Positions 4,457 through 19,059 of a stretch of DNA of 64,000 nt are shown in pieces. The stretch lies in NCBI GenBank assembly GCA_040902225.1, contig JBBDXT010000004.1, positions 934,309 through 998,308 on the forward strand, read 5' to 3'. The stretch's first letter is position 1; each line of letters starts with the position of its first letter. This stretch comes from Chloroflexota bacterium (GTDB lineage Bacteria > Chloroflexota > Limnocylindria > QHBO01). The notes below the pieces were generated by a model. That model saw nothing but the letters and a program-made list of their open reading frames with translations. It searched no databases and was not told the DNA's origin. The position numbers and the translations under genes were made by a program.

Positions 4457-4780
4457 CTACAGGAAGTGGCGGCGAATGAGTGCCACGTTTTGGAAGATGC
4501 GCAGCCCGAACGCGAACAGCGCGACCAGGTACAGGTCGATTCCCAGCCGGTCGCCGACGAAGGTGAGGGCCGCCGCCACGATGGTGTTCGTCACGAAGCC
4601 CGAGATGAAGACCCGGTTGTCGTAATGCGCGTCGAGCTCCGCCCTGATCGCGCCAAGGACCGAGTCGAGGCCGGCCAGGATGCCGACCGCGCTGTAGCGC
4701 GCCAGGTCCGGGCTGACGTTCACGTTGAGCGCCAGGCCGAGCGCCACGCCTAGGGCCAGGCCTCCGAGGGCAAGCCACAT
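4457..4780 (-). CDS. sbp: Small basic family protein (Sbp, DUF1290)
   Basis: A membrane protein of about 107 residues with an N-terminal helix (WLALGGLALGVALGLAL) and two further hydrophobic segments. It carries the family pattern ILAGLDSVLGAIRAELD, then FISGFVTNTIVAAALTFVGD, and ends FGLRIFQNVALIRRHF. Sbp genes are typical of the ftsQ-ftsA interval in Firmicutes, Actinobacteria and Chloroflexota; the molecular role is not established. The frame is also open to a GTG at 4807 (nine more codons). The ATG at 4780 begins directly with the first membrane helix, as in relatives, and has AGGA upstream, so it is preferred. Confidence 0.88.
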   Translation of the reverse strand: MWLALGGLALGVALGLALNVNVSPDLARYSAVGILAGLDSVLGAIRAELDAHYDNRVFISGFVTNTIVAAALTFVGDRLGIDLYLVALFAFGLRIFQNVALIRRHFL

Positions 4781-4834
4781 CAGAGATGCATCCTGCGTGC
4801 GCCGCACCGGCCGGTCTCGACCGAGCTGCGGATT

Positions 4835-12518: not shown

Positions 12519-13967
12519 TCAGGGATGCCCCGCTGGCTGGCCGACGAGTGCCCCCACCAGTCGGTCGAGCTCGATCCCGCGCGATGCCTTCACCAGCAGC
12601 AGGTCGCCGACGCCGGGCGCCAGGTCACGCTCGACCGCCAGCACGGCCTCGTCGGCGTCGCGAACCGTGGTCACGCGGCCGAGTCCGGCCGCCCGCGCCC
12701 CCTCGGCGATCCAGCGGCCGCGCTCGCCGACAGTCACCAGCGCGTTGGCAACACCCGCCGCCATGGCCCCGACCTCGCGATGCAGCTGCTCCTCACCTGG
12801 CCCCAACTCGAGCATGTCGCCGAGGACCGCGTAGCGCGCGCGACCCGGAGCCAGCGGACTCTCGCCCAGGAATTCGAGCGCGGCGGCGACCGAGACCGGC
12901 GAGGCGTTGTAGGTGTCGTCGATGATGGTCGCTCCGGCCGTGGCCTCGACCACCGCCATGCGATGCTCGGCGTGGCTCCCCGCCGCCAGCGCCTCCCCCA
13001 CCTCGTCGAGGGGGACGCCGAAGTGCTGGGCCACCGCGGCCGCGGCCAGCGCATGCGGCACCAGGTGGCGGCCCGGGGTCGCCGAGCGCAGCCGCCGCCG
13101 CCCCCAGGGCGCCTCGACGTTGAAAATCGTGCCGTCCACCCCGTGCGACTCGACCTCCGACGCGCGCACGTCGGCGTCCGGCCCGAGGCCGAAGGTGAGC
13201 ACCGCTGCCGTGGTGACGTCGCGCATGGCCCGGACCCTGGGGTCGTCGAAATTGAGCACTGCCAGCCCATCGGCCGGCAGCGCGGCCGGAAGCTCTGCCT
13301 TGGCACGGGCGATCGCATCGAGGCTGCCGGCACGCTCCAGGTGAGTGGGGTGGACGGCCAGCACCACGCCCACCTCCGGGCGAGCGATCTCGGCAAGCCG
13401 GGCGATCTCGCCCTCCGAGTACATGCTCATCTCGAGAACGCCCACCTGGTGCGAGGGCTCCAGCTTGAGGAGGGTCATCGGCAGGCCAGTCTCGCTGTTC
13501 AGGTTGCCCTCGTTGCGAAGGACGCGCAGGGTGCGGGAGAGGACATCGGCGACGATCTCCTTGGCGATCGTCTTGCCGGTCGAGCCGGTGATGCCGACCA
13601 CGCGAACGCCCGAACGGGCGCGCCACCAGGCGGCCATCTCCTGGAGGGCCATCAGCGCGTCTCCGACCTGCAGCACGGCAACGTCCGCCCCGGCCGGGAG
13701 CTCGACCGGGCGCTCGATGATGAGGACCGTGGCGCCGGCGCGCACGGCATCGGCTGCGAAGCCGTGGCCGTCGGTCCGCTCGCCCCGGAGAGCAACGAAG
13801 CAACAGCCCGGAACGACATTGCGAGAGTCAACCGCGGCGGTGGCGAAGGAGGTGATGCTCGTCGGCCCGAGGAGACGGGCCCCGGTGGCAGCCAGGAGAT
13901 CGTCGAGCCGGATTGACGGTGGCACGCTGCTCCCTGCAACGGGGTCGGCCGAGTCTACCAGCCTCAT
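12519..13967 (-). CDS. murF: UDP-MurNAc-tripeptide--D-alanyl-D-alanine ligase MurF
   Basis: Mur ligase that attaches D-Ala-D-Ala. The N-terminal substrate domain contains VDSRNVVPGCCFVALRGERTDG, the central ATP loop is GITGSTGKTIAKE (residues 125-137), and the C-terminal domain has IIDDTYNASPVSVAAALE and YAVLGDMLELGPGEE. Several normally strict positions differ: GSTGKTIAKE replaces the usual GSNGKTTTKE, EMSMYSEGEI replaces EMGMNSPGEI, and VHPTHLERAG replaces the usual GxAHLE. The overall layout and the DDTYNASP motif still support MurF, with altered substrate contacts possible. The start overlaps the ftsI stop by 4 bp. Confidence 0.92.
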   Translation of the reverse strand: MRLVDSADPVAGSSVPPSIRLDDLLAATGARLLGPTSITSFATAAVDSRNVVPGCCFVALRGERTDGHGFAADAVRAGATVLIIERPVELPAGADVAVLQVGDALMALQEMAAWWRARSGVRVVGITGSTGKTIAKEIVADVLSRTLRVLRNEGNLNSETGLPMTLLKLEPSHQVGVLEMSMYSEGEIARLAEIARPEVGVVLAVHPTHLERAGSLDAIARAKAELPAALPADGLAVLNFDDPRVRAMRDVTTAAVLTFGLGPDADVRASEVESHGVDGTIFNVEAPWGRRRLRSATPGRHLVPHALAAAAVAQHFGVPLDEVGEALAAGSHAEHRMAVVEATAGATIIDDTYNASPVSVAAALEFLGESPLAPGRARYAVLGDMLELGPGEEQLHREVGAMAAGVANALVTVGERGRWIAEGARAAGLGRVTTVRDADEAVLAVERDLAPGVGDLLLVKASRGIELDRLVGALVGQPAGHP

Positions 13968-15787
13968 TTAGCGGCGACCGGCGACACGATTCTGTCGGGA
14001 GCGATGGCCAGGTAGTCGAAGATCTGGGGCGCCATGGTCCGGAAGACGCTCACCGGGGTCTGGGCCATCCGATAGAGGCCCCAGGTCACCGGTCGGTGGA
14101 TCAGGATCAGGGTCACGAACTGCGGGTCGTTGGCCGGCATGATCGAGATGAACGAAGAGTCGATCCAGCCGTGCTGGTAGACGAGGTGGGTCCTCATCTC
14201 GTAGATCGGATCCCCGGCGGCATCGGTCCCCACCCGCACGCGCTCCGTCTTTGGCCCGGCGACCTCGGCCGTCCCGGTCTTGCCGGCGATCGAGTAGCCC
14301 GGGATGGCGGCCGGCTGAGCCCGGCCGTTGTCGACTGCGTCGGTCAGGAGCCGGACCATCGTCGTGGCCGTCTCCTCGCGCATGATCCGCTCGCCCCTCT
14401 GAACGTCGGTGGCGTGATACATGCCATCGGGTCCGGTCCAGCCGGCGATGACGTGCGGCGTCACCAGCGTCCCGCCGTTGGCGATGGCGCAGTAGCCGGC
14501 GACGAGCTGCACGGCGGTCACGCTCAGGCCCTGCCCGAACGCATTCTGGGCGGCCGTCAGGTCGCCGGTCGCGTTCGGCCCATCCGGGTTCCAGACCACG
14601 CCCGGGGCCTCGCCGGCGATATCGACACCCGTCGGCGAGCCGAATCCAAAGCGCTTGAATGCCTCGTACAACGGCTGCCTGCCAAGAAGGAGGCCGATCT
14701 TGGCGGCGCCGACGTTGTCCGACAGGTTCAGCACGTCACCCGCCGTGATTTCGCCGTTGCCGTGGGGCTTGGTGTAGCGGTCGGCGTTCTGGATGCGGAC
14801 GCCCGCGATCCGCAGGTTGTTGTCGTCGAGCACCGTCGTCCGCAGGTCGATCGCGCCGGCATCGAGCGCGGCGGCGACGGTGAAGGCCTTCATCACCGAT
14901 CCGGGCTCGTACTGGCGGCTCACGGCCGGGTCCGTGAAGAGGGCCGGGTCGGTGTTCCCATACGTATTGGCGTCAAATGATGGGAACGACGCCATCGCCA
15001 TGATCGCGCCGGTGTGCACGTCCATCACCAGCCCGGTCACCCCCTGGGCAACGTTCTTCCGATAGGTGCCCCACATCGTCTCCTCGAGGATGTGCTGCAG
15101 TCCTGCGTCCAGCGTCAGCTGCAGGTCTGCGCCATCGACGGGGGGCCGCAGCTCATAGACCGAATCGGCGATTCGCCGGCCGATGACATCCTCTTGCGCG
15201 CTCACCGATCCCGGCAGCCCTGCCAGGAGCGCATCCTGCGCGCCCTCGACCCCATACTGCCCGTCGCCGTCCACGTTCACGAAGCCGAGCAGCTGTGCGC
15301 CGAGCGTGGTCCTGGGTGCCACTCCGTTGATTGGATAGACCCGCTGCGTCTCGGGGAGCATCCCGACCCCGGGGATGTCGAGGGTGGCAACCCATTGAGC
15401 CACCTGCGGATCGATGCGCCGCTGCAGCCAGACCCATGGATCCTTGCTGGCGAGCCGGTCCCGCACCTCGTCCGCGTCCATCCCCAGCACTGATGCGAGC
15501 AGGCTGGCCGCCCGATCCCGATCGCCCGCCTTGATCTTCGGCGGGATGGCATACACCGACTGGACCTCGACCGAGGTCGCCAGCAACACGCCGTTGATGT
15601 CGCGGATCTCGCCCCGCTCGGCAGGGATCTCCTCGTTCTGAGCGAGCTGATTCAGTGCGATCGCCGCGACCCGATCCCGGTCCACCACCTGCCAGAAGAC
15701 GAGACGCCCTCCGACGAGGCTGGCGAGCATGGCCGTGATGAGCAGCAGGAACAGGGCGCGGGCACGGCTGTCAGTCCTGGCGAGCAC
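13964..15787 (-). CDS. ftsI: Peptidoglycan transpeptidase FtsI/PBP2-type
   Basis: Class B penicillin-binding protein, the septal D,D-transpeptidase partner of FtsW. It has an N-terminal membrane anchor (residues about 11-30) and a pedestal domain including PAERGEIRDINGVLLATSV. The transpeptidase domain holds the active-site Ser297 in SVMK (297-300), the SDN triad (356-358) and KTGT (503-506). No PASTA repeats follow, and the protein ends at 607 residues. It sits between ftsL and murF. murE, commonly next to ftsI, is absent. The stop overlaps the murF start by 4 bp (ATGA). Confidence 0.96.
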   Translation of the reverse strand: MLARTDSRARALFLLLITAMLASLVGGRLVFWQVVDRDRVAAIALNQLAQNEEIPAERGEIRDINGVLLATSVEVQSVYAIPPKIKAGDRDRAASLLASVLGMDADEVRDRLASKDPWVWLQRRIDPQVAQWVATLDIPGVGMLPETQRVYPINGVAPRTTLGAQLLGFVNVDGDGQYGVEGAQDALLAGLPGSVSAQEDVIGRRIADSVYELRPPVDGADLQLTLDAGLQHILEETMWGTYRKNVAQGVTGLVMDVHTGAIMAMASFPSFDANTYGNTDPALFTDPAVSRQYEPGSVMKAFTVAAALDAGAIDLRTTVLDDNNLRIAGVRIQNADRYTKPHGNGEITAGDVLNLSDNVGAAKIGLLLGRQPLYEAFKRFGFGSPTGVDIAGEAPGVVWNPDGPNATGDLTAAQNAFGQGLSVTAVQLVAGYCAIANGGTLVTPHVIAGWTGPDGMYHATDVQRGERIMREETATTMVRLLTDAVDNGRAQPAAIPGYSIAGKTGTAEVAGPKTERVRVGTDAAGDPIYEMRTHLVYQHGWIDSSFISIMPANDPQFVTLILIHRPVTWGLYRMAQTPVSVFRTMAPQIFDYLAIAPDRIVSPVAAK

Positions 15788-15819: not shown

Positions 15820-16236
15820 TTACTTCAAGTGGGCTGGGTCAATCGATCTCGTGGCAAAGCGGACGACGGCTGGATCGAGCGCCACGAGCTCCAACTCGTT
15901 CTGAGCTTTCAGCTTGATGGTGCTCGGCGAACGGGCCACGCCGATCTGGTAGGTGAGCTGCTGCTGCTCCGCCCGCAGGTCGGCGACTCGCGCCTGCAGA
16001 TCGTCGATCTCATAGCCGAGCGCTGCAACATGGGTCGACTGGCTCAGGTAGAAGAGGCACAGGCCGGCTGCGGCCGCGATCGCCACCAGCATGGTCGAGA
16101 GGCTGGCGACCGTTCCACGCCTGCGCGTCGCGCGACGAGCCCTCGCGCGTGAGGGGGAGGCGGGACGCACGCGAACGCGAGATCGACGTCGGACGAGGCC
16201 GATCCCAGTCGCTGGACGCGCCCCGACTATGGCCAT
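15820..16236 (-). CDS. ftsL: FtsL-like cell division protein
   Basis: A 138-residue bitopic protein. An Arg-rich cytoplasmic tail of about 45 residues precedes one membrane helix (ASLSTMLVAIAAAAGLCLFYL). A coiled-coil-like periplasmic segment follows (GYEIDDLQARVADLRAEQQQLTYQ), then a short tail. This topology and the position between rsmH and ftsI are the marks of FtsL, which joins FtsB/DivIC and FtsQ; primary sequence is poorly conserved in the family. The ATG directly follows the TAG of the 69-aa gene upstream with no gap, so translation of the two is coupled. Confidence 0.82.
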   Translation of the reverse strand: MAIVGARPATGIGLVRRRSRVRVRPASPSRARARRATRRRGTVASLSTMLVAIAAAAGLCLFYLSQSTHVAALGYEIDDLQARVADLRAEQQQLTYQIGVARSPSTIKLKAQNELELVALDPAVVRFATRSIDPAHLK

Positions 16237-16446
16237 CTAGGCTGCGCTGGGTCGCGCGTTGAGCTGGATGCTCCAGCTGGTCGTCGTCTCGGGCTCTCGC
16301 GCGTCGTCCGCCTCGAGCGCGCCATCGTGGTCGACGGCGCGCGGTGCATCCCATTCCTGGTGCGAGCGCCGCTCACGCAGGTCGCGCTGGCGGCCGCTGT
16401 ACATGCGTCTGCGACTCGACTGATGACGTGGGCGTCCTCGGCTCAT
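16237..16446 (-). CDS. Unrecognised 69-aa hydrophilic protein between rsmH and ftsL
   Basis: The gene begins with MSRGRPRHQSSRRRMYS, then a charged middle rich in Arg, Glu and Asp, and ends TTSWSIQLNARPSAA. It has no membrane segment and no cysteine. I do not recognise a family. Coding is supported by a very strong ribosome binding site (AGGAGG, 7 nt before the ATG), by a position 20 bp after rsmH, and by a stop codon that directly abuts the ftsL start. The basic N-terminal half and acidic C-terminal half suggest an RNA-, lipid- or protein-binding peptide of the divisome or of ribosome-linked RsmH; that is speculation. Confidence 0.72.
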   Translation of the reverse strand: MSRGRPRHQSSRRRMYSGRQRDLRERRSHQEWDAPRAVDHDGALEADDAREPETTTSWSIQLNARPSAA

Positions 16447-16466
16447 GGGTAACCTCCTGCAGCTGC

Positions 16467-17420
16467 TTACGCGCCTGCCGGCGCGAGCTTGATGGCCGCT
16501 CGCAGACGAGCGCTGCGAGCTCGGCGGTTGCGACTCACCTCGGCGGCGGTGGGCGTGATGCCCCTCCTGGCGATGGGACGGAGCTGTGCGCGGTGCCCGC
16601 ACAGGCAGACGGGCGGGAGCGGTTCCTCCACGCAGTCGCGGCTCTCGCGGGCCATGAAGCGCTTCACGATCCGATCCTCGCCGGAGTGGTAGCTGATGAC
16701 GGCCAGGCGGCCCCCCGCTCGCAGTGCCGCGAGGGCCCCGGCCAGTGCCGGCGTCAGCACCTCCAGCTCGCGATTGACGGCGATGCGGAGCGCCTGGAAG
16801 GTGCGGGTGGCGGGGTGGATCCGTCCGGCATCGGCGCGGCTGGTGGGAACGGCGGCGGCCACGACCTGCGCCAGGTCGGCGGCTGTCACGAGCCGCCCTT
16901 CCGCACGCGCCGCCAGGATCGCCGTCGCGATGCGGCCTGCACGGCGTTCTTCACCAAACGTCGCGAGGATTCCGGCGAGCTCTCGCTGCGACGATCGGTC
17001 GATGAGTTCGAGGGCCGATAGACCACGATCTTCATCGAATCTCATGTCCGGCGGCGCATCGGCCGCGAAGCTGAAGCCGCGTCGAGCGTCGGCCAGCTGG
17101 TAGCTCGAGAGGCCGAGGTCGAAGAGGACGGCATCGAGGGGGATGAGGTCGGCCGCGCGGGCCTCGTCATAGAGCGCCGAGAAGTTCGCCTGGCGAAGGA
17201 TGACCCGATCGCCGAAGCGGGCGAGCGTGCGTTGCGTCTCCAGGATGGCCGCCCGATCGGCGTCGAGGCCGAGCAGGCGGCCATCCGGGGACGAGGCCTC
17301 CAAGAGCCGCTCGGCGTGCCCACCGCCGCCGACCGTGCAGTCTGCGATGGAGCTGCCGGGACCCACCGCCAACGAGGCAAGAACCTCGTCGACGAGGACC
17401 GGCAGGTGCCCTTCTCCCAT
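16467..17420 (-). CDS. rsmH: 16S rRNA (cytosine(1402)-N4)-methyltransferase RsmH
   Basis: S-adenosylmethionine-dependent methyltransferase that acts on C1402 of 16S rRNA; it is the second gene of most dcw clusters. It has MGEGHLPVLVDEVL at the N-terminus, the SAM loop IADCTVGGGGHAERLLE and the acidic motif LLGLDADRAAI. After these come VLFDLGLSSYQLADARRGFSF, the helical insert domain with TRTFQALRIAVNRELE, and VISYHSGEDRIVKRFM. The length is 317 aa. The open frame extends upstream into mraZ, but the ATG at 17420, preceded by an AAGGTG element, gives the conserved family start. Confidence 0.96.
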   Translation of the reverse strand: MGEGHLPVLVDEVLASLAVGPGSSIADCTVGGGGHAERLLEASSPDGRLLGLDADRAAILETQRTLARFGDRVILRQANFSALYDEARAADLIPLDAVLFDLGLSSYQLADARRGFSFAADAPPDMRFDEDRGLSALELIDRSSQRELAGILATFGEERRAGRIATAILAARAEGRLVTAADLAQVVAAAVPTSRADAGRIHPATRTFQALRIAVNRELEVLTPALAGALAALRAGGRLAVISYHSGEDRIVKRFMARESRDCVEEPLPPVCLCGHRAQLRPIARRGITPTAAEVSRNRRARSARLRAAIKLAPAGA

Positions 17421-17511: not shown

Positions 17512-17958
17512 TCAGATCCCGAGATCGGCAAGGTGTTCGGCGAGCGCCTCTGGCTCGTCCTCGATCTTGGAGCGATACGGCAGCCAGGCAGCCGGCGCCC
17601 AGATCTCGAGTCGGTTGAGCGCCCCCACCACCACCACTTCCCCGTCGGAGAGGCCGGCGTACTCGCGCAGGTATCCCGGCACGAGGATCCGACCCTGCTT
17701 GTCGAGCTCGACCTCCACCGCACCGGACGACATGAAGCGCGCGAACTCGCGGGCGCGGGGGTTGGTCAGCGGCAGCGCCGAGATCTTCCCGGCGAGCTCA
17801 TCCCACGCGTCGTGCGGGAAGAGGCCAAGGCAGTGGTCGAGCCAGCGAGCGAGCGTGGCTCCCTGTGCCAGGCGCTGCCGAAAGCGCACGGGGACGGCGA
17901 CGCGACTGCGATCGTCGAGCGTGTGCCGGAATTCGCCGGTCAGGAATGAAGACTGCAT
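17512..17958 (-). CDS. mraZ: Transcriptional regulator MraZ
   Basis: First gene of the dcw cluster and its DNA-binding autoregulator. The 148 residues carry two SpoVT/AbrB-like half domains. The first contains FLTGEFRHTLDDRSRVAVPVRFR. The second contains AVEVELDKQGRILVPGYLREYAGL, the repeated D-x-(Q/R)-G-R-(I/V)-x-(V/I)-P signature. MraZ forms a ring that binds tandem TGGGN repeats 10 bp apart; such a set (four TGG units) is found just upstream at 17971-18003. Confidence 0.96.
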   Translation of the reverse strand: MQSSFLTGEFRHTLDDRSRVAVPVRFRQRLAQGATLARWLDHCLGLFPHDAWDELAGKISALPLTNPRAREFARFMSSGAVEVELDKQGRILVPGYLREYAGLSDGEVVVVGALNRLEIWAPAAWLPYRSKIEDEPEALAEHLADLGI

Positions 17959-18138: not shown

Positions 18139-19059
18139 CTAGGTGTCCTCTTGGTCGAGGACGAAGTACCGCTTCTGCCCGTCCGAGCCCTCGTAGACCT
18201 CGCGAATGAGGAAGGCGCCCGATCGATCGCGAATGTAGGAGAGGCCGGTGAAGAAGCCGTCACTCGTCCGCCAGTGAAGGAGGCCGTTGGACGCCTCGAT
18301 TCGGTCCACCGGCGCCTGCGAGAATCGGTCGAAGTGGGCGGTCTCCGAGCGCAGGATGTTGCCGTCGGCGTCGACCTCGAAGAGGGTGTTTTCCCCCTGG
18401 AGGACCGTCACCTCATACCCCTTGAAGGTGTCATCCGGTCGTGGCGTCGGGTCCGGCTTGGGGGTCTCCGGGAATGGGGTCTGACTCGCCTGTGGGGTGG
18501 GCGACGGCTCCTGGCTGGGAGTGGCGCTGGCGCTCGGCGGGGTGCTGAGGGACGCCTGGGGTGTTGGCGTCGGTCGGGCGGCCACCCCCGGTCCGCTCAG
18601 GTAGAAGATGGCTCCGCCCGTGGCCGCGATGGCGAGCAGCATCACCAGCCCGATCAACAGGGGGGCGCGCCGGCCGCCACCACCATCACCGGGTTGCGTC
18701 GGAGGAGTCGGTGCGACAGGCGGCGCCGGCGGCACGGGAGGCAGCGGCCGGCGAAGCGCCTCGAGCTCCTCGGTTGGGATGACCAGCACGCCGCGCAGGT
18801 AGCGGGGACAATTCCCGTAGCCGCGCCCGAGGCAGACCCGCTCCTGCTGCTCGGCCGAGAGCTCGACCGGGTCGCCAAACGCATAGCAGCGATGCTCGCG
18901 GGTGAACCCGTCGTGATATTCGGTCTGGGAGCTGGCGAGGCCCAGAAACGGGCAGATGTTCGCGGGCCGCTTGGCGAGCTCCTCGAAGAGGGCGCGCCGG
19001 CTCTGCTCCCGCTCGGCCGCCTCGCGGCTCTCCCGGCTTCGGTTTCGACGCCCGAACAA
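18139..19059 (-). CDS. Single-pass membrane protein with N-terminal Cys/His module and P/T/S-rich linker
   Basis: The product has 306 residues. The cytoplasmic N-terminal part has a Cys/His pattern: ICPFLGL, then HRCYAFG, then CLGRGYGNCPRYLRGV. This module recurs, to my recollection, in chloroflexal membrane proteins, often with LysM domains, and could bind Zn or an iron-sulfur cluster. A Pro-rich spacer and one membrane helix (APLLIGLVMLLAIAATGGAIFYL) follow. Next comes an extracytoplasmic linker of Pro, Ser and Thr repeats, and a folded C-terminal domain of about 95 residues (from FKGYEVTVLQGEN) that I do not recognise. The gene is 98 bp upstream of the dcw promoter, on the same strand. A role near the cell wall is a guess. 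Confidence 0.75.
   Translation of the reverse strand: MFGRRNRSRESREAAEREQSRRALFEELAKRPANICPFLGLASSQTEYHDGFTREHRCYAFGDPVELSAEQQERVCLGRGYGNCPRYLRGVLVIPTEELEALRRPLPPVPPAPPVAPTPPTQPGDGGGGRRAPLLIGLVMLLAIAATGGAIFYLSGPGVAARPTPTPQASLSTPPSASATPSQEPSPTPQASQTPFPETPKPDPTPRPDDTFKGYEVTVLQGENTLFEVDADGNILRSETAHFDRFSQAPVDRIEASNGLLHWRTSDGFFTGLSYIRDRSGAFLIREVYEGSDGQKRYFVLDQEDT

Follow-up and report, generated by a model that had tools for sequence, protein, structure and literature searches.

The rsmH-ftsL junction

The window, by which we mean the whole 64,000-nucleotide stretch analysed here, derives from a member of the Chloroflexota belonging to a group of uncultured soil bacteria. It carries on its minus strand a complete-looking dcw cluster, in the order mraZ, rsmH, a small gene, ftsL, ftsI, a Mur ligase gene, mraY and, further along, ddl, ftsQ, a DUF1290 gene, ftsA and ftsZ (Table 1). 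The small gene runs from an ATG at 16446-16444 to a TAG at 16239-16237; the ftsL ATG begins at 16236, and the rsmH stop, which ends at 16467, leaves 20 bp to the ATG of the small gene. Both this gap and the direct contact between TAG and ATG had been reported in a preliminary description of the locus and are borne out by the coordinates. The AGGAGG ahead of the ATG is likewise present, although its spacer measures 6 nt and not the 7 nt given there. The identity of ftsL is drawn from sub-threshold DivIC and FtsL_2 matches together with position and topology. Tight packing is common in this cluster, with ftsI and the next Mur ligase gene also overlapping.

Table 1. Coordinates of the small gene, its parts and neighbouring genes in the window
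Feature	Position	Strand	Remarks
ftsI/pbpB (class B PBP)	13964..15787	-	PF00905, PF03717
ftsL	15820..16236	-	138 aa; 45-aa basic cytoplasmic tail, one transmembrane segment, DivIC-like
TAG/ATG junction	16234..16239	-	small-gene stop abuts ftsL start; ftsL without its own Shine-Dalgarno sequence
Small gene (ORF)	16237..16446	-	69 codons + TAG; conserved in 113 class genomes, 109 distinct copies at the site
Acidic tail without predicted structure	16240..16365	-	codons 28-69; dN/dS 0.34, low pLDDT
Arginine-rich core motif MSRGRPRHQSSRRRMYSGRQRDLRERR	16366..16446	-	codons 1-27; predicted helix 7-32
Shine-Dalgarno AGGAGG of small gene	16453..16458	-	6-nt spacer to ATG
rsmH (mraW)	16467..17420	-	PF01795, E 1.4e-93
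mraZ, first dcw cluster gene	17512..17958	-	PF02381

The DUF1290 gene (window 4457-4807, minus strand), which lies between ftsQ and ftsA, codes for an Sbp-type small basic protein. Sbp is likewise a small dcw-linked protein of unclear role, but it has its own Pfam model (PF06947) and no sequence relation to the protein considered here. Upstream of mraZ, at 18139-19059 on the minus strand, an ORF encodes 306 aa that include a stretch rich in proline and one likely transmembrane segment; a Pfam search gave no match to it at E 1e-5.

Purifying selection on the encoded protein

Nearly all genomes of the family to which the window belongs were matched in a search with the 69-aa protein (E 1e-33 to 1e-7), and a 26-row profile matched 113 of the 177 genomes of the class, with one match per genome among the matches listed. 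From the regions downstream of rsmH we recovered 109 distinct copies, all of them between rsmH and ftsL. Selection was estimated from 28 close pairs, some of which share a member, so that the values are pooled estimates and not independent tests. Across codons 2-27, hereafter the core, pS is 0.37 and pN 0.033, giving a dN/dS of 0.068 (bootstrap 0.044-0.094), against 0.34 (bootstrap 0.26-0.44) for the remaining tail. In the same pairs the C-terminus of rsmH gave 0.121 and ftsL 0.221; the core thus evolves more slowly than either, and no other segment tested is as constrained. Its other two sense frames give dN/dS values of 3.9 and 7.5, and its synonymous sites show no constraint relative to those of the tail (pS 0.37 versus 0.40). 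The core is therefore under strong purifying selection at the protein level, and of the three sense frames only its own shows this. A low antisense +1 value (0.18) mirrors the third positions of the codons, and an antisense or overlapping-gene artefact was set aside.

We consider it almost certain that the small gene is a genuine protein-coding gene. Long spurious frames abound in GC-rich genomes, and a chance open frame in GC-rich DNA might be suggested on that ground, but the presence of 109 homologous copies at the same site, together with the difference in dN/dS between the coding frame and the others, refutes it and leaves it with next to no probability. The preliminary description had proposed a dN/dS comparison of the small ORF among relatives, which has now revealed purifying selection, and had named a frame broken while rsmH and ftsL persist as evidence against a gene; in nearly all copies no such break is seen.

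Distribution, gain and loss

The small gene occurs only in two families of the Limnocylindria, f1 (QHBO01, that of the window) and f3. Within the class, families f2, f4 and f5 have rsmH leading straight into ftsL, mostly overlapping it by 4 nt, with no extra ORF; no equivalent small ORF was seen at about 70 junctions sampled elsewhere in Chloroflexota. A phylum-wide search with a profile of the core only matched 38 of 400 genomes, all from f1 or f3, and no homologue was found at another locus, either in the same genome or in the phylum. Incomplete genomes were excluded as evidence of gene absence. Eight f1/f3 genomes without a match were examined: six are without any rsmH match, in G012 a contig end cuts through rsmH, and G088 has a decayed copy. 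With 109 copies at one site, confinement to two families and purifying selection, the earlier suggestion of a conserved, lineage-specific gene is upheld.

In a tree of RsmH sequences, f3 and f5 are sisters (99/96) and are joined by f1 (96/94). From this tree and the order of Limnocylindria families in PMC13212565, which we used for naming f1, f3, f5 and f2, we infer that f3 is CSP1-4, f5 Limnocylindraceae and f2 P2-11E. Because the tree joins f3 with f5, and then both with f1, a single gain in the common ancestor of these three families and a single loss, in the streamlined f5, suffice to account for the distribution.

Two copies are in decay. One (L140, in G088) is truncated to 26 aa and carries R12L; the other (L299, in G064) is truncated to 34 aa and carries R12H and Y16C. 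In both, near-invariant core residues have been lost and yet the stop remains at the ftsL start; the protein can degenerate with coupling kept, which suggests that the small gene has two separable roles. A further copy (L295, in G080) is irregular and has no in-frame start codon.

A protein in two parts

The first 27 or so residues carry the pattern SKRHQxSRRRxYGRRQHELxERR. Across copies their median net charge is +7 and that of the remainder -4, in line with the basic N-terminus and acidic C-terminal half first described, and the predicted solubility also holds in that there is no transmembrane segment (maximum 19-residue hydropathy: median 0.18, highest value in any copy 1.18). R13 and R19 are the same in all 107 aligned copies, H8, R12, Y16 and R26 differ in no more than five, and Q20, E/D22 and E25 are present in about 90% or more. 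The protein is 62-75 aa long in all but five copies, and about 38-43 residues, roughly one exit tunnel, follow the core; copies of 78, 83 and 97 aa retain an intact core. AlphaFold2 predicts a helix at residues 7-32 (pLDDT about 80 for residues 11-30) and an unstructured tail, which is probably disordered. Conservation around the predicted helix has no significant helical periodicity, and a helix with a single conserved face was set aside.

In several f3 genera (loci L221, L224, L228, L231 and L241, and other f3 loci) the tail ends in a second conserved C-terminal element, about ADPLAFLDPRTPRLRFALGD, which faintly resembles the C-terminal peptide of FtsZ and is absent in other genera. The FtsZ-tail-like motif DPLAFLDPR of some f3 tails was set aside, as it is missing from other genera and from f1.

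The core invites comparison with the ARM RNA-binding peptides (phage N, HIV Rev), since by composition and prediction it too is a short, N-terminal, arginine-rich helix, although no sequence homology was found and RNA binding is here only putative. One alternative is accordingly a trans-acting RNA-binding protein whose ARM-like helix would bind rRNA or dcw mRNA, for instance in regulating the operon. The residues R12, R13, R19, R26, Y16, H8 and Q20 are typical of nucleic-acid contacts, conservation is spread round the helix, and the gene adjoins that of an rRNA methyltransferase. However, no Rfam element was found between 15.7 and 18.6 kb, the spacer between rsmH and the small gene varies from -4 to +157 nt and so offers no constant RNA target, synonymous sites vary about as freely in the core as in the tail, and the strict linkage to ftsL would need another reason. 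We regard this alternative as unlikely.

Comparison with known families

Neither profile nor fold searches gave a significant match of the small protein to a Pfam, NCBIfam or PDB family, Foldseek and hmmsearch against PDB included, which agrees with the initial impression that no known dcw component fits. Matches to PF05416 (8 of 26 profile members, best E 4.5e-4) were judged compositional, and the one PDB sequence match, YGRRQHD in the CSL3 lectin, is short and due to chance. The protein does not belong to FtsL/DivIC (PF04977, FtsL_2), as its hydropathy maximum of 1.18 indicates no transmembrane segment and there is no Pfam match. With the bitopic divisome proteins FtsL, FtsB and DivIC it shares small size, an operon neighbourhood and a position before ftsI, but it has neither a transmembrane segment nor a periplasmic coiled coil, and the true ftsL follows it. 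The small division regulators MciZ, YneA and SosA are stress- or sporulation-induced and encoded at other loci; they are likewise small and the present protein may, like them, act on the divisome, but its gene is part of the dcw operon. Judged by these searches, the small gene belongs to no catalogued family; with its place in the dcw cluster, its conservation in two families and its coupling to ftsL, it is a candidate new cell-division factor. That it went unrecognised reflects the lack of a family model, and a gene caller would probably label it hypothetical.

It could also be that the gene encodes a small basic protein unrelated to division, associated with ribosome or nucleoid and simply riding in the operon. 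Its composition would suit this, and two of the 26 profile members weakly match the Pfam AT_hook model (best E 0.3). The conserved RGRP core of AT-hooks is lacking, however, with GRP columns 4-6 missing in 90 of 107 aligned copies; the GRP element is confined to the window's family, and f3 copies have none. Given also that the gene is never found at another locus, we think this very unlikely.

Translational coupling to ftsL

The ftsL start can be placed relative to the small-gene stop in 104 copies: 61 have it at -1 and 11 at 0, and 97 in all fall within -4 to +7, so that 97 of 104 have the stop/start spacing of less than about 10 nt expected of coupled pairs. Of these 97 copies, 86 have a Shine-Dalgarno sequence of 5 nt or more ahead of the small gene, and only 8 have one ahead of ftsL. 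Among the seven copies with a spacing of 14-36 nt, ftsL has one of at least 5 nt in three; a spacing of about 20 nt already nearly abolishes coupling (PMC10666635). TGATG/ATGA termination-reinitiation pairs (PMC6728339, PMC10666635) have the same -1 or 0 nt spacing, a strong upstream Shine-Dalgarno sequence and a weak or absent downstream one, and differ in that the upstream partner here is a new protein family. It is thus well supported, on the geometry of the junction, that the small gene is built for its translation to continue into ftsL by termination-reinitiation, and the lack of an ftsL Shine-Dalgarno sequence gives indirect support for a dependence of ftsL translation on it; the tight coupling seen in the window recurs in most copies.

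Such coupling raises the possibility of a cis-acting leader or nascent peptide, which would deliver ribosomes to ftsL and whose basic segment would slow or place the ribosome and thereby set FtsL output. The geometry, with no ftsL Shine-Dalgarno sequence, the near-constant length of almost all copies (62-75 aa) and the shortened copies that hold their stop at ftsL all speak for it. A conserved protein, however, would be superfluous in a bare coupling device, and the core is more constrained than any other segment tested; copies of 78, 83 and 97 aa keep that core intact; and f2, f4 and f5 couple rsmH directly to ftsL, so the extra ORF is unnecessary for coupling. We hold the probability of such a leader to be low. 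The preliminary description had offered either a division or wall factor or an FtsL leader: translational coupling stands, and a pure leader is disfavoured, since what is conserved is the N-terminal amino-acid sequence. The low core dN/dS, the ftsL start at -4 to +7 and the rarity of an ftsL Shine-Dalgarno sequence together establish a gained, translationally coupled small protein, neither a chance frame nor a bare leader.

A possible partner of FtsL

Gene pairs spaced at -8 to +10 nt are enriched for subunits of heteromeric complexes, from 4.5-fold in E. coli to 8.1-fold in H. volcanii (PMC10666635). The geometry here is supporting but not decisive evidence of a partnership with FtsL; by itself it is weak, because the dcw cluster is compact anyway. 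A second line of evidence is FtsL itself, whose cytoplasmic tail in E. coli recruits FtsW (PMC7733951). This tail is 99-104 aa long (about 101) in f5, against 43-51 in f1 and a median of 49 in f3. Tails of about 100 aa at loci without the small gene are seen in L127, L131, L133, L136 and L138, all from f5. A doubling of the tail in f5, from 44-49 aa, is compatible with compensation for the lost gene, although this is one event.

On the strength of the coupling and of this exchange in f5 (gene absent, FtsL tail longer), the explanation we favour, at somewhat under even confidence, is that the small protein acts in the cytoplasm as a partner of FtsL and that the two are synthesised in step. The gene was gained in Limnocylindria by insertion between rsmH and ftsL and has stayed there in single copy. 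Translation just before FtsL would give matched amounts of both proteins, and the basic helix or the acidic tail may dock on the FtsQLB-FtsWI-FtsA assembly from the cytoplasm, at the place of FtsW recruitment by the FtsL tail in E. coli, and so tune how septal wall synthesis is recruited or activated. In the two shortened copies both tail and core have decayed, which favours a partner. Against it, f2 and f4 have an FtsL tail of ordinary length and no small gene, so the gene is not needed for division as such, and the invariant H/R/Y/Q pattern resembles a set of nucleic-acid contacts more than a helix that docks through hydrophobic residues. AlphaFold2, run on a read-through chain of small protein plus FtsL with a shallow alignment (13 rows), gave no confident contact (pTM 0.25).

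From gene context a divisome role is plausible. It is possible, though we are more doubtful of this, that the protein represents a new divisome family: a cytoplasmic adaptor gained in the static dcw cluster of one class, coupled to FtsL, and lost in a streamlined freshwater family with a longer FtsL tail. The dcw cluster is normally fixed, and the gain of a gene under selection between rsmH and ftsL in a single lineage would make an exception to this. Such a gene would also offer a way into the division of largely uncultured bacteria with FtsA and no detectable SepF. SepF was detected in none of 23 class genomes, while B. subtilis, C. glutamicum and others were positive in the control; FtsA is present in all 23 class genomes tested (that of the window, G000, and 22 others).
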